DNA of 40,440 nt, from positions 1 through 40,440 of the forward strand of contig JAJPKR010000047.1 in assembly GCA_021323595.1 (NCBI GenBank). Reading direction: 5' to 3'. The position numbers were made by a program, and so were the translations under genes. The notes below the pieces were generated by a model. The model saw only the letters and a program-made list of their open reading frames with translations, was not told where the DNA came from and did no database searches. Origin of the DNA: Terriglobia bacterium. GTDB lineage: Bacteria > Acidobacteriota > Terriglobia > Terriglobales > SCQP01. The first letter of the stretch is position 1. Each line of letters opens with the position of its first letter. Of this stretch, positions 1 to 40,440 are shown one piece after another.

Positions 1-67
1 CGATCTCGAGACCAGAGTGCTCGAACCGCTCGAAAATCCGTTCGGCCCAAAACTGTTACCCATGTAG
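1..67 (+). CDS. Possible C-terminal end of a gene from outside the window (transposase-like context)
   Basis: One frame is open from base 2 to a TAG at 65-67 and would encode a peptide ending NPFGPKLLPM. The tail is too short to assign to a family. Its stop codon falls inside the first of two tandem 17-base repeats (55-71 and 80-96), an arrangement seen where a transposase gene runs into the terminal repeats of its insertion sequence. Calling it a transposase C-terminus is inference from that context only. Confidence 0.25.
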   Translation, partial: DLETRVLEPLENPFGPKLLPM

Positions 68-96
68 CCGGTACATTCCGTTACCCATGTCTCCGG
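55..96. repeat. Tandem 17-base repeats, possible insertion sequence terminus
   Basis: GTTACCCATGTAGCCGG at 55-71 and GTTACCCATGTCTCCGG at 80-96 differ at two positions and are spaced 25 bases start to start. Repeated short transposase-binding sites near the end of an element are typical of IS21-like sequences. The rest of the element would lie left of the window. The family assignment is a guess. Confidence 0.4.
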
Positions 97-104
97 GCCG
101 GACC

Positions 105-182
105 GGGCCGGGCGATGAGCTTCGCAGGGCCGCGCATCCCCGCTCGGTCGCGGCTGGCTGGATCTTCGGTGCTGGAACTCGG
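105..182. repeat. Interspersed repeat, copy A (left of vapBC)
   Basis: This stretch shares GGGCGATGAGCTTCGCAGGG near its start and CGGCTGGCTGGATYTTCGGTG near its end with copy B at 956-1040. The two copies are in the same orientation and bracket vapBC. The core is also found in copy C at 31563. Confidence 0.55.
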
Positions 183-211
183 CGGCCGGCGCCAAGGGCT
201 GGGTTCGGGCT

Positions 212-246
212 CGCATCTGATGACTTCGCATCTGATGTATGATGCG
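212..246. promoter_or_regulatory. Candidate VapB operator upstream of vapBC
   Basis: CGCATCTGATG occurs twice as a direct repeat (212-222 and 227-237, period 15). The second copy is also the left arm of an inverted repeat, CGCATCTGATGTATGATGCG (227-246, 6-base arms, 8-base spacer). Ribbon-helix-helix antitoxins bind paired repeats of this kind to autoregulate their operon. The site overlaps an upstream in-frame ATG at 239, which argues that translation of vapB starts at 263. Confidence 0.5.
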
Positions 247-262
247 TGATGCGGATGGCCTT

Positions 263-493
263 ATGCGGACGACCCTGGCGATCGACGACGACGTGCTGAG
301 CGCGGCCAAAGAGATGGCGGCGATGGAGAAGAAATCCGTGGGGGAAATCATTTCCTCTTTGGCGAGACGGGCACTCGTGGGAGGAGGATCCAACGCGAAA
401 CGCCGCAATGGCGTGCCGCTGCTCAACGTGCGCGGGAGAGCGCAGCGAGTCACGTCAGAGCTGATCCGGCAACTCCGTGAGGATCTGCCGTGA
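263..493 (+). CDS. vapB: VapB-type ribbon-helix-helix antitoxin
   Basis: The gene encodes a 76-residue antitoxin that should neutralise the PIN-domain toxin encoded immediately downstream and repress the operon through its N-terminal DNA-binding domain. The N-terminus MRTTLAIDDDVLSAAKEMA is a typical ribbon-helix-helix start: a short basic/hydrophobic strand and then a helix. The C-terminal part, with NGVPLLNVRGR and VTSELIRQL, looks like the toxin-binding tail of VapB proteins. An in-frame ATG at 239 would add eight residues, but it lies inside the candidate operator, so 263 is preferred. The stop overlaps the toxin start (GTGA), indicating translational coupling. Confidence 0.85.
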   Translation: MRTTLAIDDDVLSAAKEMAAMEKKSVGEIISSLARRALVGGGSNAKRRNGVPLLNVRGRAQRVTSELIRQLREDLP

Positions 494-921
494 CGTTCTT
501 GCTCGATATCAACGTGATGATCGCCCTGATCGATCCGGGGCACATGCAGCACGATCGAGCGCACGCGTGGTTTGAACGGCAAGGCCGCAAAGCTTGGGCC
601 ACATGTCCGCTCACCGAAAACGGCGTCCTGCGGATCGTGGGCCATCCGCGCTATCCGAATTCCCCTGGTTCTCCGGCGGCAGTCGCCGAGTTGCTGGTTC
701 AATTCCGAGCGCTGCCCGGCCATGCATTCTGGCCCGACGACGTGACGCTGCTGAACCGCCGGCGCGTGAACACAGCGCGTCTCCTGGATTCGGCTCACGT
801 CACCGACAGTTATCTCTTGGCGCTTGCGCGCGCGCACAACGGCCAACTGGCCAGCTTTGATCAACGGCTGGTCACCGATGCGGTCCTGGACGGGAAGAAG
901 GCGCTGCACCTGATTCATTGA
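490..921 (+). CDS. vapC: VapC-family PIN-domain ribonuclease toxin
   Basis: This 143-residue PIN-domain protein is a Mg2+-dependent ribonuclease toxin of the VapBC type. The four expected acidic residues are visible: Asp6 in LLDINVMIA, Glu43 in LTENGVLRI, Asp106 in HVTDSYLLALA and Asp124 in ASFDQRL. The gene starts with GTG and overlaps the antitoxin stop by four bases, the standard antitoxin-first arrangement. PIN toxins of this family usually cleave tRNA or rRNA; the target cannot be read from sequence. The pair is flanked by direct copies of an interspersed repeat, which suggests it arrived or moved as a unit. Confidence 0.88.
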   Translation: MTFLLDINVMIALIDPGHMQHDRAHAWFERQGRKAWATCPLTENGVLRIVGHPRYPNSPGSPAAVAELLVQFRALPGHAFWPDDVTLLNRRRVNTARLLDSAHVTDSYLLALARAHNGQLASFDQRLVTDAVLDGKKALHLIH

Positions 922-955
922 ACGTTGGGGCGTCAACCTCCGACTTACTCCTGGT

Positions 956-1040
956 GGGCGGGGCGATGAGCTTCGCAGGGCTTCGTTCTCCCACCCCGGG
1001 GCGCGCCTCGGCTGGCTGGATTTTCGGTGGTTAACTCGGG
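956..1040. repeat. Interspersed repeat, copy B (right of vapBC)
   Basis: It begins GGGCGGGGCGATGAGCTTCG and ends near GGCTGGCTGGATTTTCGGTG, matching copy A at 105-182 in the same orientation over about 80 bases with scattered substitutions. Its first part also matches copy C (31563-31642). It fills the gap between vapC and the convergent penicillin acylase gene. Confidence 0.55.
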
Positions 1041-1117
1041 GCGCCGCCGGCGGCCGGGAAGCGCGAGCGTCTGCGATGGGGCGCCAGGCGGCCGACGCCC
1101 AGCGTCCACGGGCAGAG

Positions 1118-3604
1118 TCAGCGGGGGGCGGGGGTGAGGAGGAGGGTGCGTTCGGTGGCGGCGGCGACGCGGGCGGGCGAGAAGTAGATCGGGAAATAGC
1201 GGCCGCGGGCCCAGAGGGGATAGAGGTCGCGATAGTGCGGGCTGCGGACGTCGCCGGACTGGCCGGGGTTATTGAGGCCGACGGAGCGATCCCAGTCGGC
1301 GGTATCGGCGATGATCTTGAACGAGCCGCCGGCGATTTGGTTGCCGCCGTCGCCGGTGGCGTCCACGGTATAGGCGTCGCCGCCGCGCGGCAGGGCGCCG
1401 ACGTCGAAGCGGGCGCGCAGCGCCGGGGGCAGCGCCGGGCTGAGCGGATGAAAGATCGTGGCGTGATGGAAGGCGCCCAGGCGCCAGCGCGAGGGGTCGG
1501 GCCCGAAGCGCGCCGCCAGCTCGCGCACGGTTTCGGCGAGGGCGTTCGCCAGCACGGCGTCGCGGGCGGCGGCGGGGTTGGGGCCGAAGCGGGCGTCGGG
1601 CCGCTCGAGCCAGCCGATGATCTTGGCCAGGCCCAGGCGGCCGATATAGGGGCGCGCGGCGGGCGGGACGCGCAGGCGATAGAGATCCGCCTGGAGATGG
1701 TTTTGCCACTTCTGGTAGATGCCGGCGGCGGCGGAATCCGGGTCGAGGACGTAATTCCAGTGCAAGAGCGCCTGGCGCGCGCGCTCGACGGCGGCGCCGG
1801 GCGTCCGCACGGCGGCGAGCAGCGGCACCAGGCGGCGCGCGGGAATCGAGAGGTAGTCGTTCTGCAGCGCCTCCATGGCGGCGACGTCGAAACGGCTGCC
1901 GCGCGCGAGGACCTCGGCGACGACTTCGGCGCGGAAGGGATCGGCCCACTGGTAGGTGAGCGCTTCCCGGTAGGGCCAGTGGGGCGGGATCAGGTAGTTA
2001 TTCGAGGTGTTCCAGAAGCCCTGGGCGGGATCGACGACGTGCGGCAGCTCGAGGATGGGCAGGAAGCCGGCCCATTCGTAGCGGCCGTCGCCGGGCACCG
2101 GCACCAGGCCGCTCCAGTTGGGACGCAGCGGCGCGATGCCGGTCGCCTGCCAGCCGATATGGCCGTCGCGTCCGGCCCAGACCATGTTCTCGGAGGGAAT
2201 GCGCGAGTAGGCGCAGGCATCGCGGAACTCGCGCCAGGTGCGCGCCTGATCCATGCGCAGGCTGGCGAGATAGGGCGCGCTGCCGGTTTGCAGCCAGGCG
2301 GCGCGGACGGCATAGGCCACATGATGCGCCGGATCTTCGAAGACCACCGGGCCGTGGCGCGTGTACTTGAGCGCGACGGCCACCGGCGCGCGCCCCTTCA
2401 CCGGAATCGTGGCGGCGAGCACGCGCATCGTCTCCCAGCGGCCGCGATAGCGGTATTGCAGCGGGTTGGCGGGATTGGTGGCGTACACGTAGAGGTCTTC
2501 TTCGTCGCCGCCGAAGATGGTCAGGCCCCAGGCGCCGTAGCGGTTGTGGCCGATGGAGACGCCGGGCAGCGCCGGCTCGCCGCCGCCGATCACGTCCCAG
2601 CCGGGCGCGACCAGATGCACCCAATAGCGCAGCGACGGCGCCTCCTGCACGCGATGGGGATCGTTGGCCATGAGCGGCAGGCCGGCGGCGGCGCGGCTCC
2701 CGGCGACCACCCAGTTGTTGCTGCCGATGACGTCGCGCCGCACGTCGAGGTCGGCGACGGTGGGCGCGGTGGTCCAGCGCGCCCAGGCGTCGAGGTCGGC
2801 GAGGGCGCGGGCGCGCGCGGCGGGGGAGGCGGCGCGATAGGCGGGGGCGAGCTCGGCGGCGGTGAAACGGATGGGCGTGCGGAAGGCGGCGTACAAGGCC
2901 AGGATGCGCTCGCTCAGCAGCGATGCATTGACGGCGGGATCCATCCGCAGATCGGGATGCGGCGGCTGGAAGGACTCGAGCTGCGCGACGCGGGCGGCGC
3001 CGATGGCGCGCACCGCCAGCGCCACGTTCAGCTCCTGGCGCACGTTGCCGAGCAGCCCGTTGAAGCGCGAGACCACGTCGGCGGGCTTCCAGGGCTGGGG
3101 CCGGATGCCGAGCATCTGGAACTCGGGCGTAAGCAAGCCGGGATCGCGGCGGGTGCGCGCGATGTAGGCGTTGATGCCGGCGACGAAGGCGCGGACGATC
3201 GCCGGGCCGTCGGGGTGATACCAGCGCAGCTCGCGGTCGAGATCGCCGCGAAACTGGAACAGGCGGGCGCCGATGTCGCGGTCGAGCTCGGCGGGGCCGA
3301 GGATCTCGGCCACGGTGCCGGTCGCCTGGCGGCGCCAAATCTCGAGCTGGAAGAGCCGGTCGCGGGCGACGTTGTAGCCCTGCGCGAAAAACAGGTCGTG
3401 CTCGTTATGCGCGTAGATGTGGGCGATGCCCCAGCGGTCGATGCGGATGGTTACCGGACGCTCGAGGCCGGGGACCGCGAGCGTCTGCGTGCGGGCTGGG
3501 GGCGGGGTTTGCGCCGGGGCGGCGGGCGGCGCAGCGGCGAGGGCGGCGAGAGACGCGGCGAGCGCCAGCAGGCGGAGGCGAGGCATGGGAGCGCCCGCCA
3601 TCAT
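1118..3604 (-). CDS. Secreted penicillin acylase family (Ntn-hydrolase) protein
   Basis: An 828-residue precursor of the penicillin G acylase / acyl-homoserine lactone acylase superfamily. Residues 1-32 form a signal peptide (basic start, Ala/Leu-rich core ending APAQ), so the enzyme should be periplasmic or secreted. Members self-cleave into alpha and beta chains, and the new N-terminal Ser of the beta chain is the nucleophile. That Ser is visible at about residue 295 in DVIGSNNWVVAG, followed by the family pattern LMANDPHR. A GFWNTSNNYL segment resembles the Asn-containing oxyanion region. Length is normal for the family. The natural substrate (beta-lactam, acyl-homoserine lactone, other amide) cannot be decided. 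A second in-frame ATG at codon 7 is an alternative start. Confidence 0.88.
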   Translation of the reverse strand: MMAGAPMPRLRLLALAASLAALAAAPPAAPAQTPPPARTQTLAVPGLERPVTIRIDRWGIAHIYAHNEHDLFFAQGYNVARDRLFQLEIWRRQATGTVAEILGPAELDRDIGARLFQFRGDLDRELRWYHPDGPAIVRAFVAGINAYIARTRRDPGLLTPEFQMLGIRPQPWKPADVVSRFNGLLGNVRQELNVALAVRAIGAARVAQLESFQPPHPDLRMDPAVNASLLSERILALYAAFRTPIRFTAAELAPAYRAASPAARARALADLDAWARWTTAPTVADLDVRRDVIGSNNWVVAGSRAAAGLPLMANDPHRVQEAPSLRYWVHLVAPGWDVIGGGEPALPGVSIGHNRYGAWGLTIFGGDEEDLYVYATNPANPLQYRYRGRWETMRVLAATIPVKGRAPVAVALKYTRHGPVVFEDPAHHVAYAVRAAWLQTGSAPYLASLRMDQARTWREFRDACAYSRIPSENMVWAGRDGHIGWQATGIAPLRPNWSGLVPVPGDGRYEWAGFLPILELPHVVDPAQGFWNTSNNYLIPPHWPYREALTYQWADPFRAEVVAEVLARGSRFDVAAMEALQNDYLSIPARRLVPLLAAVRTPGAAVERARQALLHWNYVLDPDSAAAGIYQKWQNHLQADLYRLRVPPAARPYIGRLGLAKIIGWLERPDARFGPNPAAARDAVLANALAETVRELAARFGPDPSRWRLGAFHHATIFHPLSPALPPALRARFDVGALPRGGDAYTVDATGDGGNQIAGGSFKIIADTADWDRSVGLNNPGQSGDVRSPHYRDLYPLWARGRYFPIYFSPARVAAATERTLLLTPAPR

Positions 3605-3655
3605 ACACCCGCGCGCGCAGGGCGGGGCGGACCGGGGCGCGGGCCGGCCGCGGGG

Positions 3656-5992
3656 TCAGCGAACGGCGAAGCGGCGGAACACCCGCACTTTGACGCCGTC
3701 AATGGCGACCGTGAAGACCGCCACGACCACGAGCAGCTCGACGATGAGGCGCCAGGGGAGCGGGGCCATCAAGACTCCCTTGCCCGCCAGGGCGGCGACG
3801 GCGATGAGATCGAGGGCCGAGGCCAGCAGGAGCCAGCGGCTGGGGCGCGAGCGCCACAGCCGGCCGCGCTCGCGCACGAGATAGACGTTGCCCTGCCCGG
3901 TGAAGACGAGCAGGAGGAACACCAGGGTTTGAAGCTGTCCCAGCGGCAGGCGCAGCACGTCACGGCCATAAAAGAAGACGGCGAAGGACAGCGCGAGCAC
4001 GAAGGCCGCGAGCACGGCGGCGGTCAGCACGAGCGTGGCGATGTCCCAGCGGTCGGGCTCCGGCGAAAACGAGACGCGATCGGTGGCGATGGCCATGGTG
4101 ACGAAGTCGTTGGTGAAGAGCAGCAGCACCACCAGCAGCGGCGTGATCACGAACGCCCGCGCGAGCATCACGCCGAGGCTGAGCAGGATGCCGATCTCGA
4201 GCGTCTTGATGATCTTGTTGAGCGTGTAGGTCAGCATGCGCTGGTGAATGCGGCGGCCGGTTTCGACGGCGCGCAGGACGCCGGAGAGGCCGGTTTCCGT
4301 GAGCACGACGCTGGCCGCCGCCTTGGCGACGTCGGTGGCGCTGGCGACGGCGACGCCGGTCTCGGCCTGCTTGAGCGCCGGGGCGTCGTTGACGCCGTCG
4401 CCGGTCATGCCGACGATGTGGCCGCGGCGCTGCAAGGCGGCGACCAGGCGGAGCTTGTCTTCGGGGAAGACGCCGGCGAAGGCGTCGCAGCGGTCGGCGG
4501 CGGCGGCGCCGTCTTGCAGGTCGGCGGCGCTGCCGACGCGCTCGCCGATGCCGACCTGGGCGGCAACCGCGCGCGCGGTGGCGGCGCCGTCGCCGGTGAT
4601 CATGATGACGCGCACGCCCAGGCGCTGCAGGCTCTGCACCAGCGCCTTCGAGTCGGCGCGAATGGGATCTTGCAGGCCGAGGAGGCCGACGGCTTCCAGG
4701 CTGCCTCCCTCGCCGGCGGCGACGGCGAGAACGCGTCCGCCGGTGGCGGCGAGGCGGGCGACGGCGGCGGCCGCAGCGGCGGCCTCGCCAGCGCCGAACA
4801 CGGCGTCAGGCGCGCCTTTCACGACGCGGAGGCGGCCGGCGCCGTGCTCGTAAACGGACTCGGAACGCTTGGTGGCCGGGTCGAAGGGGATCAAGTGCAG
4901 CCGTTGGGGCGGGGCAACGAGCGCGCCCGCCTTCCCGGCGGCGGCGAGGATGGCGAGATCGATCGGGTCCTGCGTGGCGGCATCGGAGGCCAGCGCGGCA
5001 AAGCGCAGGACTTCGGCGGCGGAATGGCCGGCGAGCGGCTGCACCTGGGCGACCGCCAGGCGATTTTCGGTGATGGTGCCGGTCTTGTCGGTGCAGAGGA
5101 CGTCCATGGCCGCCGCCTCTTCGATGGCGGAGAGGCGCGTCACCAGCACCGCGTGGCGTGACAGCTCCAGCGCGCCCAGGGCCGTAGCCACGGCGAAGGT
5201 CGCCGGCAGCGCCACGGGCACCGAGGCCACCAGCAGAATCAGCGCGAACGGCAAGGCCTCGGCCCACGGCAGCCGCGCGAAGGGCGCGTACATCAGCAGC
5301 GCGGCCACCAGCGCGGCGTCGAGGGCGATGAGATATTTGACGATCGTGAAAATGAGTTCTTGCAGGTGGCTGGCGGTCTTCGCGGTCTTCACCAGTTCGG
5401 CGGCCCTGCCGAAATAGGTGCGGGCGCCGGTGGCCGTGACTTCGCCGTCGGCCTCCCCGTGCTTCAGGCGCGAGCCGGCGTAGACGAGGGCGCCGGCGGA
5501 TTTCGCCACCGGCAGCGATTCGCCGGTGAGTTCGGATTCATCCACTTGCAGCGCGCCGGCGAGCAGCCGCACATCGGCGGGAGCGAGGTCGCCCAGGCGC
5601 AGATGGATGACGTCGCCCGGCACGAGGCGCTCGGCGGCGGTCGTTTGCCAGCGGCCGTCGCGCAAGACGCGCGCCTGCACGCGCAAGCGCGCGCGCAGCA
5701 GCGCGAGCGCACGGTTGGCCTGGTTCTCCTGGGTGAAGCTGAGAATGGCGTTGAATACGAGCAGGGCGGCGATGATGATCGCGTCGTCGCGCTTGCGCAC
5801 GAGCAGTTCGAGCACCACGGTGGCTTCGAGCATCCAGGGAACGGGCGCCCAAAACTTGCCCAAGAAGGCGCGCAGGGGGCGGCGGCGCTCCTCCTCGACG
5901 CGATTGGGGCCGAATTCGCGCTGCCGCGCCTCGGCTTCGGCCGTCGTCAATCCCGTGAGCGGGGCGCACGCCCCCACGTCCCCTCGTGGCAT
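3656..5992 (-). CDS. P-type H+-ATPase (plasma-membrane P3A type)
   Basis: A roughly 778-residue P-type ATPase predicted to export protons at the cost of ATP. Hallmarks in order: actuator loop LTGESLPVAK (about residue 157), the M4 sequence VASVPVALPATF (about 256-267), phosphorylation site CTDKTGTITEN with Asp about 302, hinge motif TGDGVNDAPALK, and a membrane Asp in LFTNDFVTMAIATD in the position of the proton-carrying M6 Asp of fungal and plant pumps. Heavy-metal-binding domains and the CPC motif of copper pumps are absent, supporting the H+ type. An in-frame TTG at 6001 would add three residues; ATG at 5992 is used. It may help pH homeostasis. The gene stands alone. Confidence 0.88.
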   Translation of the reverse strand: MPRGDVGACAPLTGLTTAEAEARQREFGPNRVEEERRRPLRAFLGKFWAPVPWMLEATVVLELLVRKRDDAIIIAALLVFNAILSFTQENQANRALALLRARLRVQARVLRDGRWQTTAAERLVPGDVIHLRLGDLAPADVRLLAGALQVDESELTGESLPVAKSAGALVYAGSRLKHGEADGEVTATGARTYFGRAAELVKTAKTASHLQELIFTIVKYLIALDAALVAALLMYAPFARLPWAEALPFALILLVASVPVALPATFAVATALGALELSRHAVLVTRLSAIEEAAAMDVLCTDKTGTITENRLAVAQVQPLAGHSAAEVLRFAALASDAATQDPIDLAILAAAGKAGALVAPPQRLHLIPFDPATKRSESVYEHGAGRLRVVKGAPDAVFGAGEAAAAAAAVARLAATGGRVLAVAAGEGGSLEAVGLLGLQDPIRADSKALVQSLQRLGVRVIMITGDGAATARAVAAQVGIGERVGSAADLQDGAAAADRCDAFAGVFPEDKLRLVAALQRRGHIVGMTGDGVNDAPALKQAETGVAVASATDVAKAAASVVLTETGLSGVLRAVETGRRIHQRMLTYTLNKIIKTLEIGILLSLGVMLARAFVITPLLVVLLLFTNDFVTMAIATDRVSFSPEPDRWDIATLVLTAAVLAAFVLALSFAVFFYGRDVLRLPLGQLQTLVFLLLVFTGQGNVYLVRERGRLWRSRPSRWLLLASALDLIAVAALAGKGVLMAPLPWRLIVELLVVVAVFTVAIDGVKVRVFRRFAVR

Positions 5993-6055
5993 GTAAGGCA
6001 ATTTTAGGGCACGCGAGGGACTATTTTGGAGGACGGAACGAGGAGCGGGGACCGG

Positions 6056-7132
<1,077 letters not shown>

Positions 7133-7219
7133 GCCCTTGGGGGTGAAGCGTCCTCGCATAGAGCTAGAGTAACTGGGATCGGGGAGACGCGACGGCAGGC
7201 TGACGGGGAGGCCAAGACC

Positions 7220-7271
7220 GGCAGGCAAGGCTGCGCACCCCGCGGCAAAACTGGCAGGCAAGAATGCCCGC
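7220..7271. repeat. Two copies of a GGCAGGCAAG short interspersed repeat
   Basis: GGCAGGCAAGGCTGCGC (7220-7236) and GGCAGGCAAGAATGCCCGC (7253-7271) lie 33 bases apart between the threonine aldolase start and the hemW stop. A related copy, GGCAGGCAGGAATGCCGGC, is at 39251-39269. The sequence contains an imperfect palindrome (GGCA...TGCC). Confidence 0.5.
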
Positions 7272-7299
7272 CCTACAGCAGGAGCGGGACTGACGGGGG

Positions 7300-8445
7300 T
7301 CAGAGGAAGCGGGCGAAGACTTCGTTCGAGAGCAGGCGGCCGCGCGGCGTCAGGGCGACGCGCCCGCCCTGCGCGGCGAGCAGGCCGGCGGCGGCGAGCT
7401 CCGCCAGCGCCGTCTCGAAGCCGGCGAAGGCCGCCGCCGCGACGCCGGCATTGCGGCGCAGGCCGAGAAACAGCGCTTCCTCGCGCGCCATGCGCGGGGT
7501 GAGCGCGCAGCGCTCCCGGCGGGGCAGGCGGCCGGCGGCGAGGGCGGCGAGGTAGGCGTCGAGGCCGCCGGCGTTGCCCCAGCGCTCGGAGCCGGTGAAG
7601 GAGTGCGCGTCCAGCCCGAAGCCGAGATAGGGGCGGCGCAGCCAATAGCGCTCGTTGTGGCGGCTTTCGCCGCCGGGGCGGGCGAAGTTGGAGATCTCGT
7701 ATTGGCGATAGCCGGCGCGCGCGAGCAGGGCGCAGGCGGTCTCGTATTGCTCGGCGATGGCGTCGTCGTCGGGGACGGCAGCGGCGTGATAGCGCGCGCC
7801 GCCGGCGCGCAGCTCGCGGCCCAAGCGGCTGTCGTCATCCACCTCGAGCATGTAGATGGAGATGTGGGGCGCGTCCGCGGCGACCGCCGCGGCCAGCGAT
7901 GTGCGCCAGGAGGCGGGCGTCTGGCGGGGCAAGCCGGCGATGAGGTCGAGATTGACGTTGGCGATGCCGGCGGCGCGCAGATGCGCGAGATCGGCGAGGA
8001 CGGCGGCGGGCGGCTGGCGGCGGCCGACGGCGCGCGCCTCGGCTTCGACGAACGACTGCACGCCCAGGCTGACGCGATTCACGCCGGCGGCGGCGAGGGC
8101 GCCGAGGACCGCGGGCGGGAGGGTGCCGGGCATGGCCTCGACGGTGAATTCGGCGCCGGGGGCGATGGCGAAGCGCTCGCGCAGGGCGGCGGCGAGCGCG
8201 GCGATCTGTTCGGGGGCGAGCAGCGTGGGCGTGCCGCCGCCCCAATAGATGGTATCCACCGGCGGCCGCGCGAGATCGAGGGCGGCGAGGGTGAGGTCGA
8301 TTTCGCGCAGCAGGGCGCGGCAGTAGTCGGCTTGCAGGGCGGCGGGAAAGACGCCGCTGGCGAAGTTGCAGTAGGAGCACTTCGCGCGGCAGAACGGCAC
8401 GGCGAGATACAGGCCGAAGGCGTCGCGCGCGCCGTCGCGGGACAC
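7300..8445 (-). CDS. hemW: HemW-like radical SAM protein (heme chaperone)
   Basis: A 381-residue radical SAM protein of the coproporphyrinogen oxidase-like HemW family, which binds heme and delivers it to target proteins; older annotations call it oxygen-independent coproporphyrinogen III oxidase. The CX3CX2C cluster motif is in PFCRAKCSYCNF near residue 18-25, followed by YWGGGTPTLL and the family segments VSLGVQSF and NLDLIAGLPRQT. The C-terminal HemW domain is present (NERYWLRRPYLGFGLDAHSF, then a winged-helix-like tail). It starts with GTG three bases after the stop of the LacD-type aldolase gene, so the two are probably co-transcribed. A true heme enzyme role versus chaperone role cannot be separated by sequence alone. 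Confidence 0.9.
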   Translation of the reverse strand: MSRDGARDAFGLYLAVPFCRAKCSYCNFASGVFPAALQADYCRALLREIDLTLAALDLARPPVDTIYWGGGTPTLLAPEQIAALAAALRERFAIAPGAEFTVEAMPGTLPPAVLGALAAAGVNRVSLGVQSFVEAEARAVGRRQPPAAVLADLAHLRAAGIANVNLDLIAGLPRQTPASWRTSLAAAVAADAPHISIYMLEVDDDSRLGRELRAGGARYHAAAVPDDDAIAEQYETACALLARAGYRQYEISNFARPGGESRHNERYWLRRPYLGFGLDAHSFTGSERWGNAGGLDAYLAALAAGRLPRRERCALTPRMAREEALFLGLRRNAGVAAAAFAGFETALAELAAAGLLAAQGGRVALTPRGRLLSNEVFARFL

Positions 8446-8448
8446 CGG

Positions 8449-9501
8449 CTAGGCCAAGGGGGCGGCGGGCGCGACGCCCGGCTCCCCGCGGCGCGGCGCG
8501 GCGCCGTGGGCATCGAGGCCGTAAAAGGCGAACCAGGGCTTCGCCGCGCGCAGGCTGGCGTTGACCGCTTCGATGTTCTTGCGGCCCTCGCTCTCGAGCC
8601 ACTGCTCGAAGGCGGCCAGGCCCTGGCGGGCATAGACGGGAATGCCGTCGGCCCAGGTGGCGCGTCCGCAGAGCACGCCGGAGAAGGGGACGCCGGCTTC
8701 CGCCGCGAGCGCCAAGCTCTCGTTGAACTCGGCGTTGCTGACGCCGGCGCTGAGATAGATGAAGGGCTTGCCGGCCGCGGCGGCGGCGGCGGTGAAATGG
8801 CGCTTGGCTTCGTCGCGGGTATAGGCGGCGGCGCCGGTACAGGCGCGGGTACCGGCGGTGAATTTCAGATTGACCGGGATCTCGACTTTCAGGATATCCA
8901 CGCCGTATTGCGGCTTCGAGAACTCGGCCATGCTGCGGGCGACGATCTCCGGCTTCTTGCGCGCGTATTCCAGCCCCTTTTCGTCGCCGCCGGCGGGATC
9001 GTAGCCGACGAACTCGAGGAAGAACGGAATGTCCTGGGCGCGGCACTCGTCGCCGACGCGCTCGATGAAGGCGTGCTTGTGATCGTTGATCTCGGCGCGC
9101 TCGAAGGGGGTGTAGTAGAGCAGCACCTTGATGCAATCGGCGCCGGCGGCCTTGAGGCGGCGCACGGACTGGTCGGGCAGCAGGTCGGGCAGGCGCCCCG
9201 GCTGCGTGTTGTCATAGCCGGATTTCTCGTAGGCGAGCAGCAGGCCGGCGTTCTTGGCGCGGCGCCGGGTGGCGGGCAGGCCGAACTCCGGGTCGAGCAA
9301 GATGGCGCTGGCGTAGGGGGTGAGCAGGCGGGCGACGGCGATCTTGAACTCTTCCATCTGCGCCCGCGTGGCGGGCTTCCCCGCCGCCTTGGCCAATGCC
9401 TTCTCCAAGCTGCCGCGCTGATCCATGGCGGCGGCGGCGATCACCCCGCGCTCGTCGGATACCGCCTTCATTCCCTTCAACTTGCCTTCGCTGAGCTGCA
9501 A
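8449..9501 (-). CDS. lacD: Tagatose 1,6-diphosphate aldolase (LacD family)
   Basis: A 350-residue class I aldolase of the LacD family, which splits tagatose 1,6-bisphosphate into glyceraldehyde 3-phosphate and dihydroxyacetone phosphate. Recognisable family segments are AMDQRGSLEKAL, ILLDPEFGLPATRR, AGLLLAYEKSGYD, IKVLLYYTPFERAEINDHKHAFIERVG (shortened here only in mention) and FFLEFVGYD; the likely Schiff-base lysine is in DILKVEIPVN. The start is a TTG at 9501, supported by GGAGG seven bases upstream; an ATG ten codons in is the alternative. It is upstream of, and nearly abuts, hemW. No other lactose/tagatose pathway genes are near, so the physiological substrate may be a different sugar phosphate. 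Confidence 0.83.
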   Translation of the reverse strand: MQLSEGKLKGMKAVSDERGVIAAAAMDQRGSLEKALAKAAGKPATRAQMEEFKIAVARLLTPYASAILLDPEFGLPATRRRAKNAGLLLAYEKSGYDNTQPGRLPDLLPDQSVRRLKAAGADCIKVLLYYTPFERAEINDHKHAFIERVGDECRAQDIPFFLEFVGYDPAGGDEKGLEYARKKPEIVARSMAEFSKPQYGVDILKVEIPVNLKFTAGTRACTGAAAYTRDEAKRHFTAAAAAAGKPFIYLSAGVSNAEFNESLALAAEAGVPFSGVLCGRATWADGIPVYARQGLAAFEQWLESEGRKNIEAVNASLRAAKPWFAFYGLDAHGAAPRRGEPGVAPAAPLA

Positions 9502-9608
9502 CGGTCTTCCTCCCCGGGGGATCGATGGTTATCCCTATCCAATTGTAAACGCGCGCCGCCGCTTGGGCGCGCGGCGGAGGGCGGGGCAGCGTAGAATTGA
9601 GGGCAGCC

Positions 9609-10655
9609 GTGGCGAAGCCGCATTTTTACGCCGAACATGCGGAGGGGTTGAAGCGCGAACTGGCGGCCGCGCTCGACGCGGCGGCGCTGCGCGCGCTGCA
9701 CCGCAAGCAGCCGGCGCGGCACTTCCTGGCCGCCGGGGGCTTGTTCGCGGTTCTGGCGCTGGCCTTCGCCGGGGCGGCGCATTTCGCGCAGCCGTGGATC
9801 TGGGCGCCGCTGGCGATCGTCGAGGGCTTCTGCATTTTCGACTGCACGGTGCTGCTGCACGAAGTGGTGCACGACAACGTGCTGCGGGGCACGCGCGAGG
9901 CGGAGCTGCCGGCGGAGGCGGGCGGCTGGCACCGCGCGCTGGCGCTCGCCTACTCGATTCCCAGCGGCATCTCCGCCACCCAGTTCACGCGCTGGCATCT
10001 CGACCATCACGCCGAACTGGGCTCGAGCGAAAGCGATCCCAAGCGCGCCCATCTGTCGCCCAAGCGCAACCGCCGCTGGCTGAAGCTGCTCTACTTCACG
10101 CCGGCGCTGTTCTTCATCTATTTCCGCGCGGCGCGGCGGGAGGCGAGCACCTATCCGGCGGCGCTGCAGGCGCGCATCGCCGCCGAGCGGCGGCTGGCGA
10201 TGCTGTTTCACTTGGCGGTGGGCGCGGCGACGCTGCTGCTCGCCGGCTGGGGGGCGATGCTGCGCGCCTGGGCGGCGCCGGTCTTTCTGGTCTTTCCCGT
10301 GGCGTTTGCGCTGAACCGGCTGGGGCAGCACTACGACATCCGTCCCGAGGACACGGCGGAGTGGAGCACGCTGATGAAGCCGCGCTGGTATTGGAGTCTC
10401 GCATTTCTCAACTCCAACTACCATCTCGAGCACCATTACTTCCCGCGCGTGCCGCTCTACAACCTGCCGCGCTTGGGACGGCTGTTGCGGCCCTTCTACG
10501 CGCAGCGGGGCATGCGCTACCACACCTTCGGCGAGCTGCTGTGGAAGTATCTCGTGCTCAATCGCCCGCCGCACGCCAATTGGGACGAGCCGGCGGGATG
10601 GCGGGGATCGGGATCGGAGGAGACGCAGGCGTTCGTGCGTTCGTCAGCGCAGTGA
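9609..10655 (+). CDS. Membrane fatty acid desaturase family protein
   Basis: About 348 residues, with the three histidine boxes of the di-iron membrane desaturase/hydroxylase superfamily: HEVVHDN (residues 84-90), HLDHHAE (130-136) and HLEHHYF (272-278). Hydrophobic stretches around residues 39-55, 66-82, 164-174 and 200-235 are consistent with membrane segments. Members introduce double bonds or hydroxyl groups into acyl chains or other lipids. GTG at 9609 is preferred to the TTG at 9597 because GAGG lies six bases before it. The gene is divergent from the LacD-type gene and is followed by a palindrome array. The substrate and position of desaturation are not predictable from the sequence. 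Confidence 0.82.
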   Translation: MAKPHFYAEHAEGLKRELAAALDAAALRALHRKQPARHFLAAGGLFAVLALAFAGAAHFAQPWIWAPLAIVEGFCIFDCTVLLHEVVHDNVLRGTREAELPAEAGGWHRALALAYSIPSGISATQFTRWHLDHHAELGSSESDPKRAHLSPKRNRRWLKLLYFTPALFFIYFRAARREASTYPAALQARIAAERRLAMLFHLAVGAATLLLAGWGAMLRAWAAPVFLVFPVAFALNRLGQHYDIRPEDTAEWSTLMKPRWYWSLAFLNSNYHLEHHYFPRVPLYNLPRLGRLLRPFYAQRGMRYHTFGELLWKYLVLNRPPHANWDEPAGWRGSGSEETQAFVRSSAQ

Positions 10656-10660
10656 GCGCG

Positions 10661-10797
10661 GGCGCCGGGGCTAAGCCCCGGAATCGCTAATGACGGCGCG
10701 AACGCCGGGCTCAAGCCCGGCTCTGCCACGAGGTCAAAGCCCGGCGGCGCCACGGCGCTAAATCCCGGCGCTTCCGCAGCGCTGAAGCGCGGCGGGG
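10661..10797. repeat. Array of degenerate GC-rich palindromes
   Basis: Five related units follow one another between convergent genes. Two are perfect palindromes: CCGGGGCTAAGCCCCGG (10665-10681) and GCCGGGCTCAAGCCCGGC (10704-10721). The others are decayed: GGTCAAAGCCCGGCGG near 10732, GGCGCTAAATCCCGGCGC near 10754, and GCGCTGAAGCGCGGC near 10779. The shared core is GCTYAAGCCCGGC. It looks like a REP-type repeat that multiplied locally, and it may also end transcription from both sides. Confidence 0.65.
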
Positions 10798-10809
10798 CCG
10801 CGGGAACGG

Positions 10810-11667
10810 TCAGCGCAGGCGATGGAGCACGGGCAGGCTGGCTTCCATCATCGGCAGGCTCATCTCCAGGTAATAGTTGCGGATGCCGCCGATCTTGGCG
10901 GCGGCGAAGATGCGCCGCCAGTCGAGGGTACCCTGGCCGAGCGGCACGATGCGGCGGGTCCTCGCCGACCAGCCTTGCACGTGCATGGAAATGAAGCGGC
11001 CGGGATAACGGGTGAAATAGGTGACGGCGTCGAAGCCGTAGGCGATGGAAGAGACCTGGAACTGGAACTTCACCAGGCGGGGATCGAGCAACTGGAACAG
11101 CAGATCGTAGGTGCGGCGGCTGCCGACGCTGGTGTCGAGGAAGCCCTCGTTGTGCAGGCCTTGCTGGATGCCGGCGGCGGCGGCGCGCGCCGCGATGCCG
11201 TTGTACTCGTCGGCGGCGCGCTTGACGTCGTCGAGCGTGGGATGCTGGGGGCCGTCGAGGCTGGGCACGATCATCTGCGTCAGGCCGAGCTCGTGCGCCC
11301 AGGCGATGCGGGCCGGCTGCTGGGTGCGCAGCTCGTCCATGCCGAAGTGGGAGCTGACGCAGGTGAGGCCGTGATCTTCGATGATGCGGCGCAGCTCGCG
11401 TCCGGAATATTTGGCGAGACCGCCGAAGCCGCTGTCGGCGTAGCCGACCGGCGAGCACAGCTCGATGGACTTGAAGCCGGCGCGCGCCAGCGTCGCCAGC
11501 GTGCCGGGGAAATCGCGCGCGATTTGGTCGCGCACCGGCCAGGTCTGGCAGCCGATGGGCAAGCCCAGCGGATCGGCGGCGGCGGGCCGCGCGGCGGCGG
11601 CGGCGAGGCCGGCGAGCGCGCCGGCGGCCTGCAGAAATTGGCGGCGGTTGAGGTCGGATGCGAACAT
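10810..11667 (-). CDS. Tat-exported sugar phosphate isomerase/epimerase-like TIM-barrel protein
   Basis: A 285-residue xylose isomerase-like TIM-barrel protein. It starts with a twin-arginine signal (LNRRQFLQAAGALAG, then an Ala-rich core), so it should be exported folded. The mature part has the family features: GFKSIELCSPVGY, HGLTCVSSHFGMDE, NEGFLDTS and YLEMSLPMMEAS. GGAGGAG precedes the ATG at a good distance. It lies 57 bases downstream of the Gfo/Idh/MocA gene on the same strand. Pairs of such exported proteins are common in Acidobacteriota, Planctomycetota and Bacteroidota; recent work on the families links some of them to periplasmic 3-keto-sugar chemistry. The substrate here is unknown. 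Confidence 0.82.
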   Translation of the reverse strand: MFASDLNRRQFLQAAGALAGLAAAAARPAAADPLGLPIGCQTWPVRDQIARDFPGTLATLARAGFKSIELCSPVGYADSGFGGLAKYSGRELRRIIEDHGLTCVSSHFGMDELRTQQPARIAWAHELGLTQMIVPSLDGPQHPTLDDVKRAADEYNGIAARAAAAGIQQGLHNEGFLDTSVGSRRTYDLLFQLLDPRLVKFQFQVSSIAYGFDAVTYFTRYPGRFISMHVQGWSARTRRIVPLGQGTLDWRRIFAAAKIGGIRNYYLEMSLPMMEASLPVLHRLR

Positions 11668-22967: not shown

Positions 22968-23324
22968 CTAGAGCGCGACGGCGCGGCGCGGCCGGCGCGC
23001 CAGGCCCAGCGCCGCGAGCACGATCGCGAAGCACAGGTGCGCGGCGGCGAGCGGGTAATCGCGATGCAGGACAAAGACGGCCGCGCCGCCGAGCATGAGC
23101 ACCGCCAGCACCGCGGCGGCGAGCGGCGCCAGCCGCCGCGGCAGCAGCGCCAGCGCGCCGAGCACTTCCACCAGCCCGAAGACGATCACGAACCAGGGCG
23201 CGAAGCCATAGCGCGCGAACATCGCTTGATCGGAGCCGGGCGCGATCAGCTTGTAGGCGCCGTCGAGGAAAAAGAGAATCGCGAAGACGGCCGTCGCGGC
23301 CACGATCAGACCTTTCTTGAGCAT
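22968..23324 (-). CDS. DoxX-like small membrane protein
   Basis: A 118-residue protein with four hydrophobic helices (about 5-22, 44-62, 66-88 and 93-110). The family-like features are FLDGAYKLIAP after the first helix and PWFVIVFGLVEVLGALALLPRR in the second. DoxX-like proteins are membrane proteins associated with respiratory or quinone-linked processes; the exact function is unknown. It lies between the cytochrome c gene (44 bases upstream) and the lipoprotein gene (nine bases downstream) on the same strand. Confidence 0.75.
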   Translation of the reverse strand: MLKKGLIVAATAVFAILFFLDGAYKLIAPGSDQAMFARYGFAPWFVIVFGLVEVLGALALLPRRLAPLAAAVLAVLMLGGAAVFVLHRDYPLAAAHLCFAIVLAALGLARRPRRAVAL

Positions 23325-27640: not shown

Positions 27641-28081
27641 TCAGACCGCCTCGGGCGGCGAAACCGACTCACTGCGCTGGGGGCCGTCGCCGGGGCCGCG
27701 AAACGCCTGCGCGACCTCGTAGAAAGCCTCGATCATCACGGCCGCCGCCGCGGCCAACAGGCCGAACAGCACGGCGAAAAACGCCACCAGGTGAACGACA
27801 AATATAGCATAAAGAGCCGCGGCGAGCAGCACCAGGCGCAGCCAGTAACGGCTGCCGCCGCGCCGCTTGCCGCCGCCGGCGATGCTGGCGGTCATGGCGT
27901 AGATGCCGCTCTTCAGCCAGCGAAAGTTGAGCCAGCTCAGCAGGCCGCCGAGCGCCAGGCCGAAGCCCCACGCCGGACCGCGCCAAGCGCCCACGCCCGC
28001 CGCCGCCAGCAGGGCGCACAGCAGGGTCAGGCGCTCCACGCGCTCTTCGGGTGCGAGGCGGGCCCAGCGCGAAGTGCTCAT
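27641..28081 (-). CDS. atpI: AtpI-like ATP synthase accessory membrane protein
   Basis: A 146-residue protein with four hydrophobic segments (about 19-35, 41-56, 78-97 and 100-116), including GFGLALGGLLSWLNFRWLKSG, typical of the ATP synthase subunit I family, which assists c-ring assembly. Its ATG overlaps the stop of the upstream atpZ-like gene (ATGA), so the start is at 28081 and the longer open frame to 28324 is not used. It lies directly before atpB, the standard position of atpI. Confidence 0.75.
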   Translation of the reverse strand: MSTSRWARLAPEERVERLTLLCALLAAAGVGAWRGPAWGFGLALGGLLSWLNFRWLKSGIYAMTASIAGGGKRRGGSRYWLRLVLLAAALYAIFVVHLVAFFAVLFGLLAAAAAVMIEAFYEVAQAFRGPGDGPQRSESVSPPEAV

Positions 28082-38435: not shown

Positions 38436-39143
38436 ATGGCCGAGATTCCGGAGATTCGCGAACAGGGCGGCGCGCGGCAGGGGCAGCCGCAATTTCTCGA
38501 CCGGCGCCTGTACTTGCAGCTGCTGGCGTTCGGCGGCGCGCCCGATCCGGCGCCGCTGAGCCGGGCGCTGGCGGCGGCGCAAATTCCCGGCGTGATCTAC
38601 GCCGACCTGCACGATCCGCGAGGGCTGGGGCTGCTCACGTGGAGCGAGGATCCGGAATTTTTCACCGGGCCGCTGCGCGCGGCGCTGCAGCAGCCGGCGC
38701 TCGCAGGCTGGGCGCTCAAGCCCGGCTACACGATGTTCGGCCGCAGCTATGCGCTCGGCCACGAGCCCGACCTGGAGGATTGGCTGATCGAGAAGCCGCG
38801 GCGTTCGGTGCTGAATCCGGAGTGGCCGTGGGCGGTGTGGTATCCGCTGCGGCGCAAGGGCGCATTTTCCGCGCTGACGCCGGAGCAAGCGCAGCCGATC
38901 CTGCGCGAGCACGGGCGCATCGGCCACGCCTTCGGCGAGGCCGGCTTCGCGCAGGACGTGCGGCTGGCGTGTTTCGGCCTGGATGCGCACGACAACGATT
39001 TCGTGATCGGCTTGCTGGGCGCGCGGCTGCATCCGCTCTCGGCCTGCGTGCAGGCGATGCGCAAGACGCGCCAAACGAGCGAGTTCATCGAAGCCATGGG
39101 ACCGTTCTTCGTCGGCCGCGCCGTGTGGCGGCACGGCGGCTGA
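38436..39143 (+). CDS. hemQ: HemQ-like chlorite dismutase-family protein (coproheme decarboxylase)
   Basis: A 235-residue protein of the chlorite dismutase superfamily. In bacteria using the coproporphyrin-dependent route, HemQ decarboxylates coproheme to heme b. Family segments: WYPLRRKGAFSALTPEQAQ, then the likely proximal heme ligand His in ILREHGRIGHAF, and the C-terminal CFGLDAHDNDFVIGL and TSEFIEAMGPFFVGR. The distal Arg of true chlorite dismutases cannot be placed with confidence, which favours HemQ. It starts nine bases after nth. Confidence 0.85.
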   Translation: MAEIPEIREQGGARQGQPQFLDRRLYLQLLAFGGAPDPAPLSRALAAAQIPGVIYADLHDPRGLGLLTWSEDPEFFTGPLRAALQQPALAGWALKPGYTMFGRSYALGHEPDLEDWLIEKPRRSVLNPEWPWAVWYPLRRKGAFSALTPEQAQPILREHGRIGHAFGEAGFAQDVRLACFGLDAHDNDFVIGLLGARLHPLSACVQAMRKTRQTSEFIEAMGPFFVGRAVWRHGG

Positions 39144-39269: not shown

Positions 39270-39531
39270 TCCTCTGAGCGCCGGCGCCTCGCTGCGGCGG
39301 GAGCGGTGGCGGCGCTGGGGGCGCTATCTGCTTTTCGCGCTCCCCTTGCTCGCGCAAGTGATCGCGCTGCCGGCGCTGCTCGTGTATTGGATGCTGAATC
39401 CGCAAGGCATGGCGAGCGGCGGCGCCTGGTATTCGTGGGTGGTGGTGCTGGCGCTGATTCTGGCCTATTTCCTGGTGGTGCAGCCGTGGGCGCAGGTGGG
39501 CAGGGGCGAGCCCTGGCCCACTGAGGTCTGA
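39262..39531 (+). CDS. Small two-helix membrane protein of unknown function
   Basis: An 89-residue protein with two predicted membrane helices (YLLFALPLLAQVIALPALLV and WYSWVVVLALILAYFLVVQPW, with basic residues before the first). No family is recognised. Basic residues (RRERWRRWGR) before the first helix suggest a cytoplasmic N-terminus. ATG 39262 lies inside a short interspersed repeat; the frame is open further upstream (39196) without support. Confidence 0.55.
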   Translation: MPAPLSAGASLRRERWRRWGRYLLFALPLLAQVIALPALLVYWMLNPQGMASGGAWYSWVVVLALILAYFLVVQPWAQVGRGEPWPTEV

Positions 39532-39576
39532 TGGCTTGAGATCTACGGGCGCGGCAGCGGGGTCGTGTTAAGGCGC

Positions 39577-39623
39577 TGGAGCCGACGGCCGGGCTCGAAC
39601 CGGCGACCTGCTGATTACGAATC
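39577..39623 (-). pseudogene. 3' fragment of tRNA-Thr (CGT), likely attachment site
   Basis: On the minus strand these 47 bases form the end of a tRNA. They are the anticodon loop TTCGTAA (anticodon CGT) with its 3' stem TCAGC, the variable region AGGTC, the T-arm CCGGTTCGAGCCCGG, the acceptor strand CGTCGGC, and TCCA. Only two bases of the 5' anticodon stem remain; the D-arm and 5' acceptor strand are replaced by unrelated sequence. Remnants of this kind are left at the distal end when a phage or integrative element inserts into a tRNA gene. Confidence 0.8.
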
Positions 39624-40075
39624 GTGTAACACGGCAGGCAAAGAGTGTAACCTGGGGCAGTGGCGTGCGCGAATAGGGCGGCTTTTCTGGCACCTTTCTA
39701 TACAGTCCCGCCCTCGCAATTGCCCCTGTTTTCTCTCAGGGGTCCCCCAACTTTCCACCCAACTTAGCAATGCACAGTACACGGCATCGCCTACTACTTG
39801 GCATCGCAGGAACACGCTACGCTGCCCTATACGCGGCGAACGGCCCCGCCCTGGTAGTCGTCTGCACCCGACAACCGATCGCCTCGCCTGAGCGAGCAGA
39901 GGCTCAGCGTTGGGCCGTGTAGCCGGTCCGCACAGAGGACTCCGGCGCGTTTCGGCCGAGCCCCGGTTGCGCTATGCGGCTTCGGGCAACGCTCTCGGTT
40001 CACCCGCCCATAATCCGCCAGGCCAAGAAACCCAAAGCGGGCAGTTGTGTGGAGTGGGAGTAGTCTATTGGGGTC
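39624..40075. other. Gene-free, less GC-rich stretch at the presumed island edge
   Basis: No reading frame here has convincing protein features. The composition is visibly less GC-rich than the rest of the window, with runs such as TTTTCTCTC. A short hairpin, CCCCTG (39723-39728) and CAGGGG (39737-39742), is present. It may hold integrase arm-binding sites next to the tRNA-Thr fragment. The apparent protein reading across the tRNA (WSRRPGSNRRPADYES) is a translation artefact. Confidence 0.5.
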
Positions 40076-40366
40076 ATGGGGCGACCGATCCCGGGGTTCC
40101 GGCGGCGGAAGCGAGGCGGGCAGATGTTCGCCGATCTGGGCGAAGCCCTCGGCGCGGTGGCGCGAGCGCAGTTCGCGTTCTATCTGAGCAGGTGGGGCGG
40201 CCGCATGCCGGGCTGGCGGCGCGCGATCCTCGCGGGCCGGGCTCGAGTCTATGCGCTGCGCCCGCCGGCGTCATGGTCGCGCTGGGGGCGCTCGATGCAC
40301 GCTAAGCGCGGCGGACTCGCCCGGCAACGTCAACGAAGGGAGGCGGCGAATGGCGGCAAATCTTGA
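40076..40366 (+). CDS. Hypothetical protein on the presumed island
   Basis: A basic, 96-residue protein with no recognised family (for example FADLGEALGAVARAQFAFYL and a Trp/Arg-rich middle). Codon third positions are strongly GC-biased as in real genes of this genome. A second ATG at 40124 is an alternative start. The 3' end overlaps the next frame by 17 bases. Confidence 0.45.
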   Translation: MGRPIPGFRRRKRGGQMFADLGEALGAVARAQFAFYLSRWGGRMPGWRRAILAGRARVYALRPPASWSRWGRSMHAKRGGLARQRQRREAANGGKS

Positions 40367-40440
40367 CAAGAAACCCGCGGCCACGGCCGAGACAATGAGC
40401 GACTCCGAGGTGCGGCGCGCGCTGGCGGAATTGGGGATTC
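40350..40440 (+). CDS. Start of a hypothetical protein, cut by the window edge
   Basis: The frame runs from ATG 40350 to the window end without a stop. GGGAGG lies eight bases before the ATG, a good ribosome-binding site. The 30 visible residues begin MAANLDKKPAATAETM and include SDSEVRRALAELGI, suggesting a helical segment. Too little is present to name a family. Confidence 0.5.
   Translation, partial: MAANLDKKPAATAETMSDSEVRRALAELGI

Follow-up and report, generated by a model that had tools for sequence, protein, structure and literature searches.

The right end of the window analysed here (40,440 nucleotides, the entire contig C33 of a genome of 65 contigs and 3.55 Mb, ending at 40440) is, with a probability of about 94%, the end at which a phage-related element, brought into the gene for tRNA-Thr(CGT) by a tyrosine integrase, left the displaced tRNA fragment. 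This reading rests on an identical core at two places in the genome, an intact tRNA with an adjoining integrase, the order and orientation of the two ends, cognate repeats inside them, and the same architecture throughout a family of related elements. The original prediction of a truncated tRNA-Thr(CGT) on the minus strand, reduced to its 3′ 47 bases by a cut within the anticodon stem, is confirmed by identity to the intact gene on contig C3: window positions 39577–39623 (minus strand) correspond to tRNA nucleotides 30–76 with the CCA, and the block 39575–39623, which comprises these 47 nt plus 2 bp and is referred to below as the attachment core, is identical at 49 of 49 positions to G000:C3:5744–5792 in a BLAST search of the organism's own genome. 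The intact tRNA-Thr(CGT) (C3:5746–5821) holds the only other exact copy of the core genome-wide, and an E value of ∼1e-18 within the own genome means that the match is not due to chance. ARAGORN called no tRNA at 39577–39623, as expected for a gene interrupted on the 5′ side of its anticodon stem, and a search of public genomes with the 49-bp core returned zero exact matches.

If the fragment marks one edge of an integrated element, the intact tRNA should mark the other. On C3 the gene carrying the same 3′ 47 bases is adjoined by an open reading frame for a tyrosine integrase (L006:4452–5735; PF00589 at 74 bits, PHROG integrase at 1.6e-56), which points toward the tRNA and stops 8 bp from the 49-bp core; this supports the predicted element edge. 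Behind the integrase and on the opposite strand lie genes for a 223-aa protein without assignment, an HTH_17/excisionase-like protein, a phage O-like replication protein (with no relatives in viral contigs) and a DnaB helicase. The order and orientation of the two ends are those expected of an element that runs from window position 39624 rightward through a missing stretch into C3:1–5743, so that the predicted direction was right, and the element measures at least 817 + 5743 bp (≥6.6 kb), its middle being absent from the assembly. The evidence supports the view that C3 carries the restored-tRNA end and the window the displaced-fragment end of one element. The change in composition that had been claimed at this point is present as a drop in GC from ∼0.70 to 0.61–0.63 over about 39500–39950, but the change is slight and, within the element, confined to about the first 300 bp, after which the values return to 0.69–0.72.

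In the event that we envisage, a circular element would have carried an attP with a copy of the tRNA 3′ part, and its integrase, bound to arm-type repeats flanking the core, would have joined attP to the chromosomal tRNA by recombination at the anticodon loop. The element's 3′ copy would then complete the chromosomal 5′ half, giving the intact C3 gene beside the integrase, while the original 3′ half would be pushed to the far end (39577–39623), followed by the original chromosome with the hemQ-like gene, nth and rdgB. We infer both the recombination itself and the present mobility of the element.

The chromosome to the left of the fragment had been described as normal, with hemQ, nth and rdgB, and this holds for rph, an rdgB-like gene and nth by NCBIfam models, whereas hemQ can be assigned at the family level only. 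The hemQ-like gene (chlorite dismutase family; 38436–39143, plus strand), which flanks the element on the 3′ side of the original tRNA, passes the cut-off of Pfam Chlor_dismutase (PF06778), while the NCBIfam HemQ models score below theirs; relatives of it occur in 11 of the 13 other genomes of the family. At the far left of the window, positions 1–107 match the left end of contig C20 without a difference and C4:5860–5966 at 99%, and look like a dispersed, contig-breaking repeat, perhaps the end of an insertion sequence. The same repeat lies directly behind the 3′ ends of two tRNA-Arg sequences in this genome, at L086 (G000:C4) 5806–5968 behind the tRNA-Arg(TCT) fragment on C4 and at L103 (G000:C21) 6742–6933 behind the tRNA-Arg(CCT) on C21, which perhaps reflects an insertion preference.

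To the right of the core, positions 39624–40440 are DNA of the integrase-free end of the element, as judged from order and orientation relative to C3 and from an exact 107-bp contig-end overlap with contig C47, and the contig stops within the element. Beyond the core this stretch has no similarity to the C3 sequence, one 24-bp repeat apart. The next frames had been called unrecognised, and the 96-aa reading frame at 40076–40366 (plus strand) indeed has no family match: it gave zero Pfam, PHROG or NCBIfam matches and none in phages or plasmids, and only weak, partial matches (E of 6e-5 or worse) among 297 genomes of the phylum. It is nevertheless probably a true gene of the element, since the 25 codons that differ between it and a 93% identical copy on C47 comprise 18 synonymous and 7 non-synonymous changes, i.e. 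the differences are mostly silent. A further reading frame, beginning MAANLDKKPAATAETMSDSEVRRALAELGI..., starts at 40350 (plus strand), remains open to the contig end at 40440 and is identical on C47.

The C47 copy belongs to a sibling element, as the genome contains two such elements, one at tRNA-Thr and one at tRNA-Arg(TCT), whose common middle is absent from the assembly. Contig C4 encodes an integrase that shares 46% identity with the C3 enzyme, and has a 51-bp, 96% identical 3′ fragment of tRNA-Arg(TCT), and C47 carries the intact tRNA-Arg(TCT); the sibling thus has its integrase at the fragment end and not adjoining the intact tRNA. The window shares with it positions 39933–40440 (C47:1–508, 93% identical, the last 107 bp being the identical ones), a 508-bp stretch in which an RNA search found nothing but tRNAs. 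Exactly 107 bases are identical between the right end of C33 and the left end of C47, and likewise between the left ends of C3 and C4, among 19 pairs of contig ends in the genome sequence that have a 107-mer in common. This sharing probably reflects an assembly graph with 107-bp overlaps that was broken at shared nodes, and C33 breaks at 40440 because the sibling (C4/C47) has the same middle. As for the missing middle itself, the 48-bp end sequence is found in no viral contig, and no further contig matches the window end. Two other integrase-bearing elements are present in the genome, L090 (G000:C8) 5978–11422 at tRNA-Asp(GTC) and L118 (G000:C37) 15–5209 at tRNA-Leu(TAA), the latter on the 5′ side of its tRNA. 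Both have a zinc-ribbon reading frame in common with C3 and C4, and a DUF3631-type large protein is encoded on C37 as well as on C4.

The C3 integrase has 26 relatives in public genomes, all in records named for Acidobacteriota (Acidobacteria, Granulicella, Bryobacterales and similar), and most of these lie against an intact tRNA (Asn, Arg, Lys, Val or Thr) at its 3′ end, in the same convergent arrangement as on C3. At eight loci the 3′ end of the same tRNA (45–48 nt, 96–100% identical) recurs upstream in the same orientation and delimits elements of 5.4–8.4 kb; one of the eight, L159, has a second, tandem tRNA fragment. Two more loci with the fragment 22 kb and 13.9 kb away bring the total to ten elements of 5.4–22 kb. 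Except in the diverged L170, the identity with the intact tRNA sets in 45–47 nt before its 3′ end, a point that falls on the 5′ border of the anticodon loop or directly beside it and corresponds to the anticodon-centred class of Islander (PMC4383910). A brief search of the literature found no description of this element family in Acidobacteriota.

Both ends of the element in this genome contain a 24-bp direct repeat, GTCCC[C/T]CAACTTTCCACCCAACTT, which lies 119–142 bp inside the core in the window and 42–66 bp inside the core on C3. The window copy (GTCCCCCAACTTTCCACCCAACTT, 39742–39765, plus strand) matches C3:5678–5701 at 23 of 24 positions in the same orientation, and the C3 copy sits within the last codons of the integrase gene. 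Across the 3.55 Mb of the genome the 18-bp centre of the repeat has just two occurrences, one within either end, and therefore pairs the window and C3 ends independently of the core. In lambda-type systems such repeats are the arm-type binding sites of the integrase, element-specific direct repeats on both arms of attP outside the core. The 24-bp repeats resemble these in being direct, on both arms, outside the core and specific to each element, and we consider them putative arm sites to which the integrase would bind; they differ in apparently consisting of tandem half-sites of ∼12 bp at fixed offsets, with the integrase-proximal copy in the last codons of the gene. The 24-bp repeat contains CAACTT half-sites, and the elements at tRNA-Asn have a repeat of the GGTAT type. 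A remnant of a second integrase at 39742 was rejected as the source of the window copy, as only 24 bp match and the offset recurs in other elements.

The repeat of the sibling element differs from this one and is likewise present at both of its ends (C4:5636–5674 and C47:588–626), and among the ten family elements eight have element-specific repeats at the same offsets, six of them strong. Strong repeats are seen in both elements of this genome as well as in L149, L150, L158, L159 and L162, weaker ones at the expected offsets in L157 and L170, and none in the best alignment of the two ends of L156. Alignments of ends scored a mean of 18.1 for cognate and 9.3 for non-cognate pairs. Of two held-out genomes, Granulicella sp. 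L46 had the repeat at the predicted places and Acidobacterium sp. S8 did not, its element being decayed, with a short integrase remnant and a diverged fragment. On the integrase side the repeat consists of two tandem half-sites of ∼12 bp, which encode doubled motifs in the integrase tail such as PNFPPNF, PVFSPV and PQNPPQ; these repeat-encoded C-terminal tails are seen at L006 5678–5701 and at the integrase ends of L149–L171, and the doubled motifs vary by element lineage. There was no support for the idea that the N-terminal domain co-varies with the arm type more closely than other parts of the integrase. The less ordinary trait of these elements is that their arm repeats are fixed in position and variable in sequence, with the integrase-side copy in the tail of the gene.

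The original prediction had proposed a comparison with relatives lacking the insert, and this yielded linkage of the flanks but no clean empty site, the family genomes compared all being of other genera. In G001 and G006 (another genus) the 3′ side of tRNA-Thr holds, within ∼7 kb, homologs of genes of the window's nadE region, and G001 additionally has the gene of the upstream C3 flank on the 5′ side of tRNA-Thr(CGT). As both flanks surround one tRNA-Thr in G001, the flanks of C33 and C3 most likely represent one locus, albeit with a different gene order. None of the hemQ-like loci of the 11 relatives has a tRNA-Thr nearby, which indicates that rearrangements have occurred there. Extra 3′ fragments of tRNA-Thr(CGT) are found in G002 and G007 (one each) and in G010 (two), and the tRNA is accordingly a repeated target in this bacterial family. 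The G010 locus (L053, G010:C183:17000–36000) is a tandem island array in which an intact tRNA-Thr(CGT) is followed by two downstream 3′ fragments (27917–27964 and 23162–23208), with no recognisable integrase.

What stands against a single integration event is that C33 and C3 are separate contigs, none of which joins window position 40440 to C3:1. The fragment might be a relic of an earlier element, since lost or deleted, with the C3 element a different and later insertion into the same tRNA. The repeated hits on tRNA-Thr(CGT) in G010, G002 and G007 and the tandem fragments at L159 lend this some plausibility, but we consider it very unlikely given that the core is identical at 49 of 49 positions, that the same arm repeat occurs in the window and C3 ends and nowhere else in the genome, and that both contig ends run into middles common to the same sibling element. 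Even less probable is an artefact of assembly or binning, in which the contig end would be chimeric or the DNA that of a foreign organism: the genome is fragmented into 65 contigs with many 107-bp contig-end overlaps, yet the fragment lies 817 bp inside its contig, the 49-bp repeat is shorter than the 107-bp overlap and so cannot be a graph artefact of that length, and the same structure is present in independent public assemblies.

The integration event is of a textbook kind that is already known. Islander (PMC4383910) catalogues genomic islands integrated into tRNA genes, including an anticodon-centred site class 'A', and its islands, like the element described here, have an intact tRNA and a 3′ fragment in the same orientation at their ends, a tyrosine integrase at one of them and a split at the anticodon loop; arrays in tandem are seen as well. 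Both the intact tRNA and the 3′ fragment are in this genome, with the tyrosine integrase near an element end; as to their lying on one replicon, orientation and flanks fit and the flanks form one locus in a relative, while the ends are on separate contigs. Nothing essential differs from an Islander-type island, apart from the two contigs and the middle absent from the assembly.

While the mode of integration is clear, the type of element has to be weighed. We somewhat favour a small island of the satellite type, which would have an integrase, a regulator and replication genes but lack virion genes. This is consistent with the eight complete relatives of only 5.4–8.4 kb, with the AlpA/HTH-like, primase/helicase and weakly terminase-small-subunit-like proteins that relatives encode, and with the finding of no portal or HK97-type capsid gene in the assembled genome, an assembly that does not contain the element middle; the missing middle and the relatives of 13.9 and 22 kb argue the other way. 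PICIs (PMC6092414) and PICMIs (PMC10803314) are likewise small elements with an integrase, an AlpA/HTH-type regulator, replication genes and a specific site, and the corresponding module (integrase, HTH_17/excisionase-like, O-like and DnaB) is present here. Classical PICIs measure about 12–15 kb and the complete relatives here are smaller; a helper phage, induction or packaging is not known for the present element. It is also conceivable, if less so, that the element is a prophage, complete or decayed, or else a satellite that forms capsids, its late genes then lying in the missing middle. The element has its tyrosine integrase and its O-like and DnaB genes in common with temperate phages that replicate by lambda-type O/DnaB; no virion gene (head, portal, terminase or tail) turned up in the assembled genome, which lacks the middle. 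The viral contig L146 combines a related integrase at tRNA-Arg(TCT) with virion genes, although most of the complete relatives fall short of the size of a phage genome. L146 (1618–5137) encodes a head protein, a portal and a terminase small subunit beside its integrase, and is itself a prophage or a capsid-forming satellite.

The analysis resolves what was half a tRNA gene near the end of a contig as a mapped integration event. It adds the matching end, the cause of the contig break, a sibling element and a family whose arm repeats keep their position but vary in sequence. A bolder and tentative reading is that these elements form a family of small satellites in Acidobacteriota that has yet to be described, and that their integrases may recognise arm repeats made of tandem half-sites and set at fixed distances from the tRNA core; the repeat might then switch between lineages in step at both ends, its integrase-proximal copy lying in the integrase's own C-terminal codons. 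If true, a satellite family with switching arm repeats would offer a natural series from which arm-site specificity could be read, and the integrase family, with one layout but different arm repeats and target tRNAs, could be used for studying how such enzymes choose their DNA.
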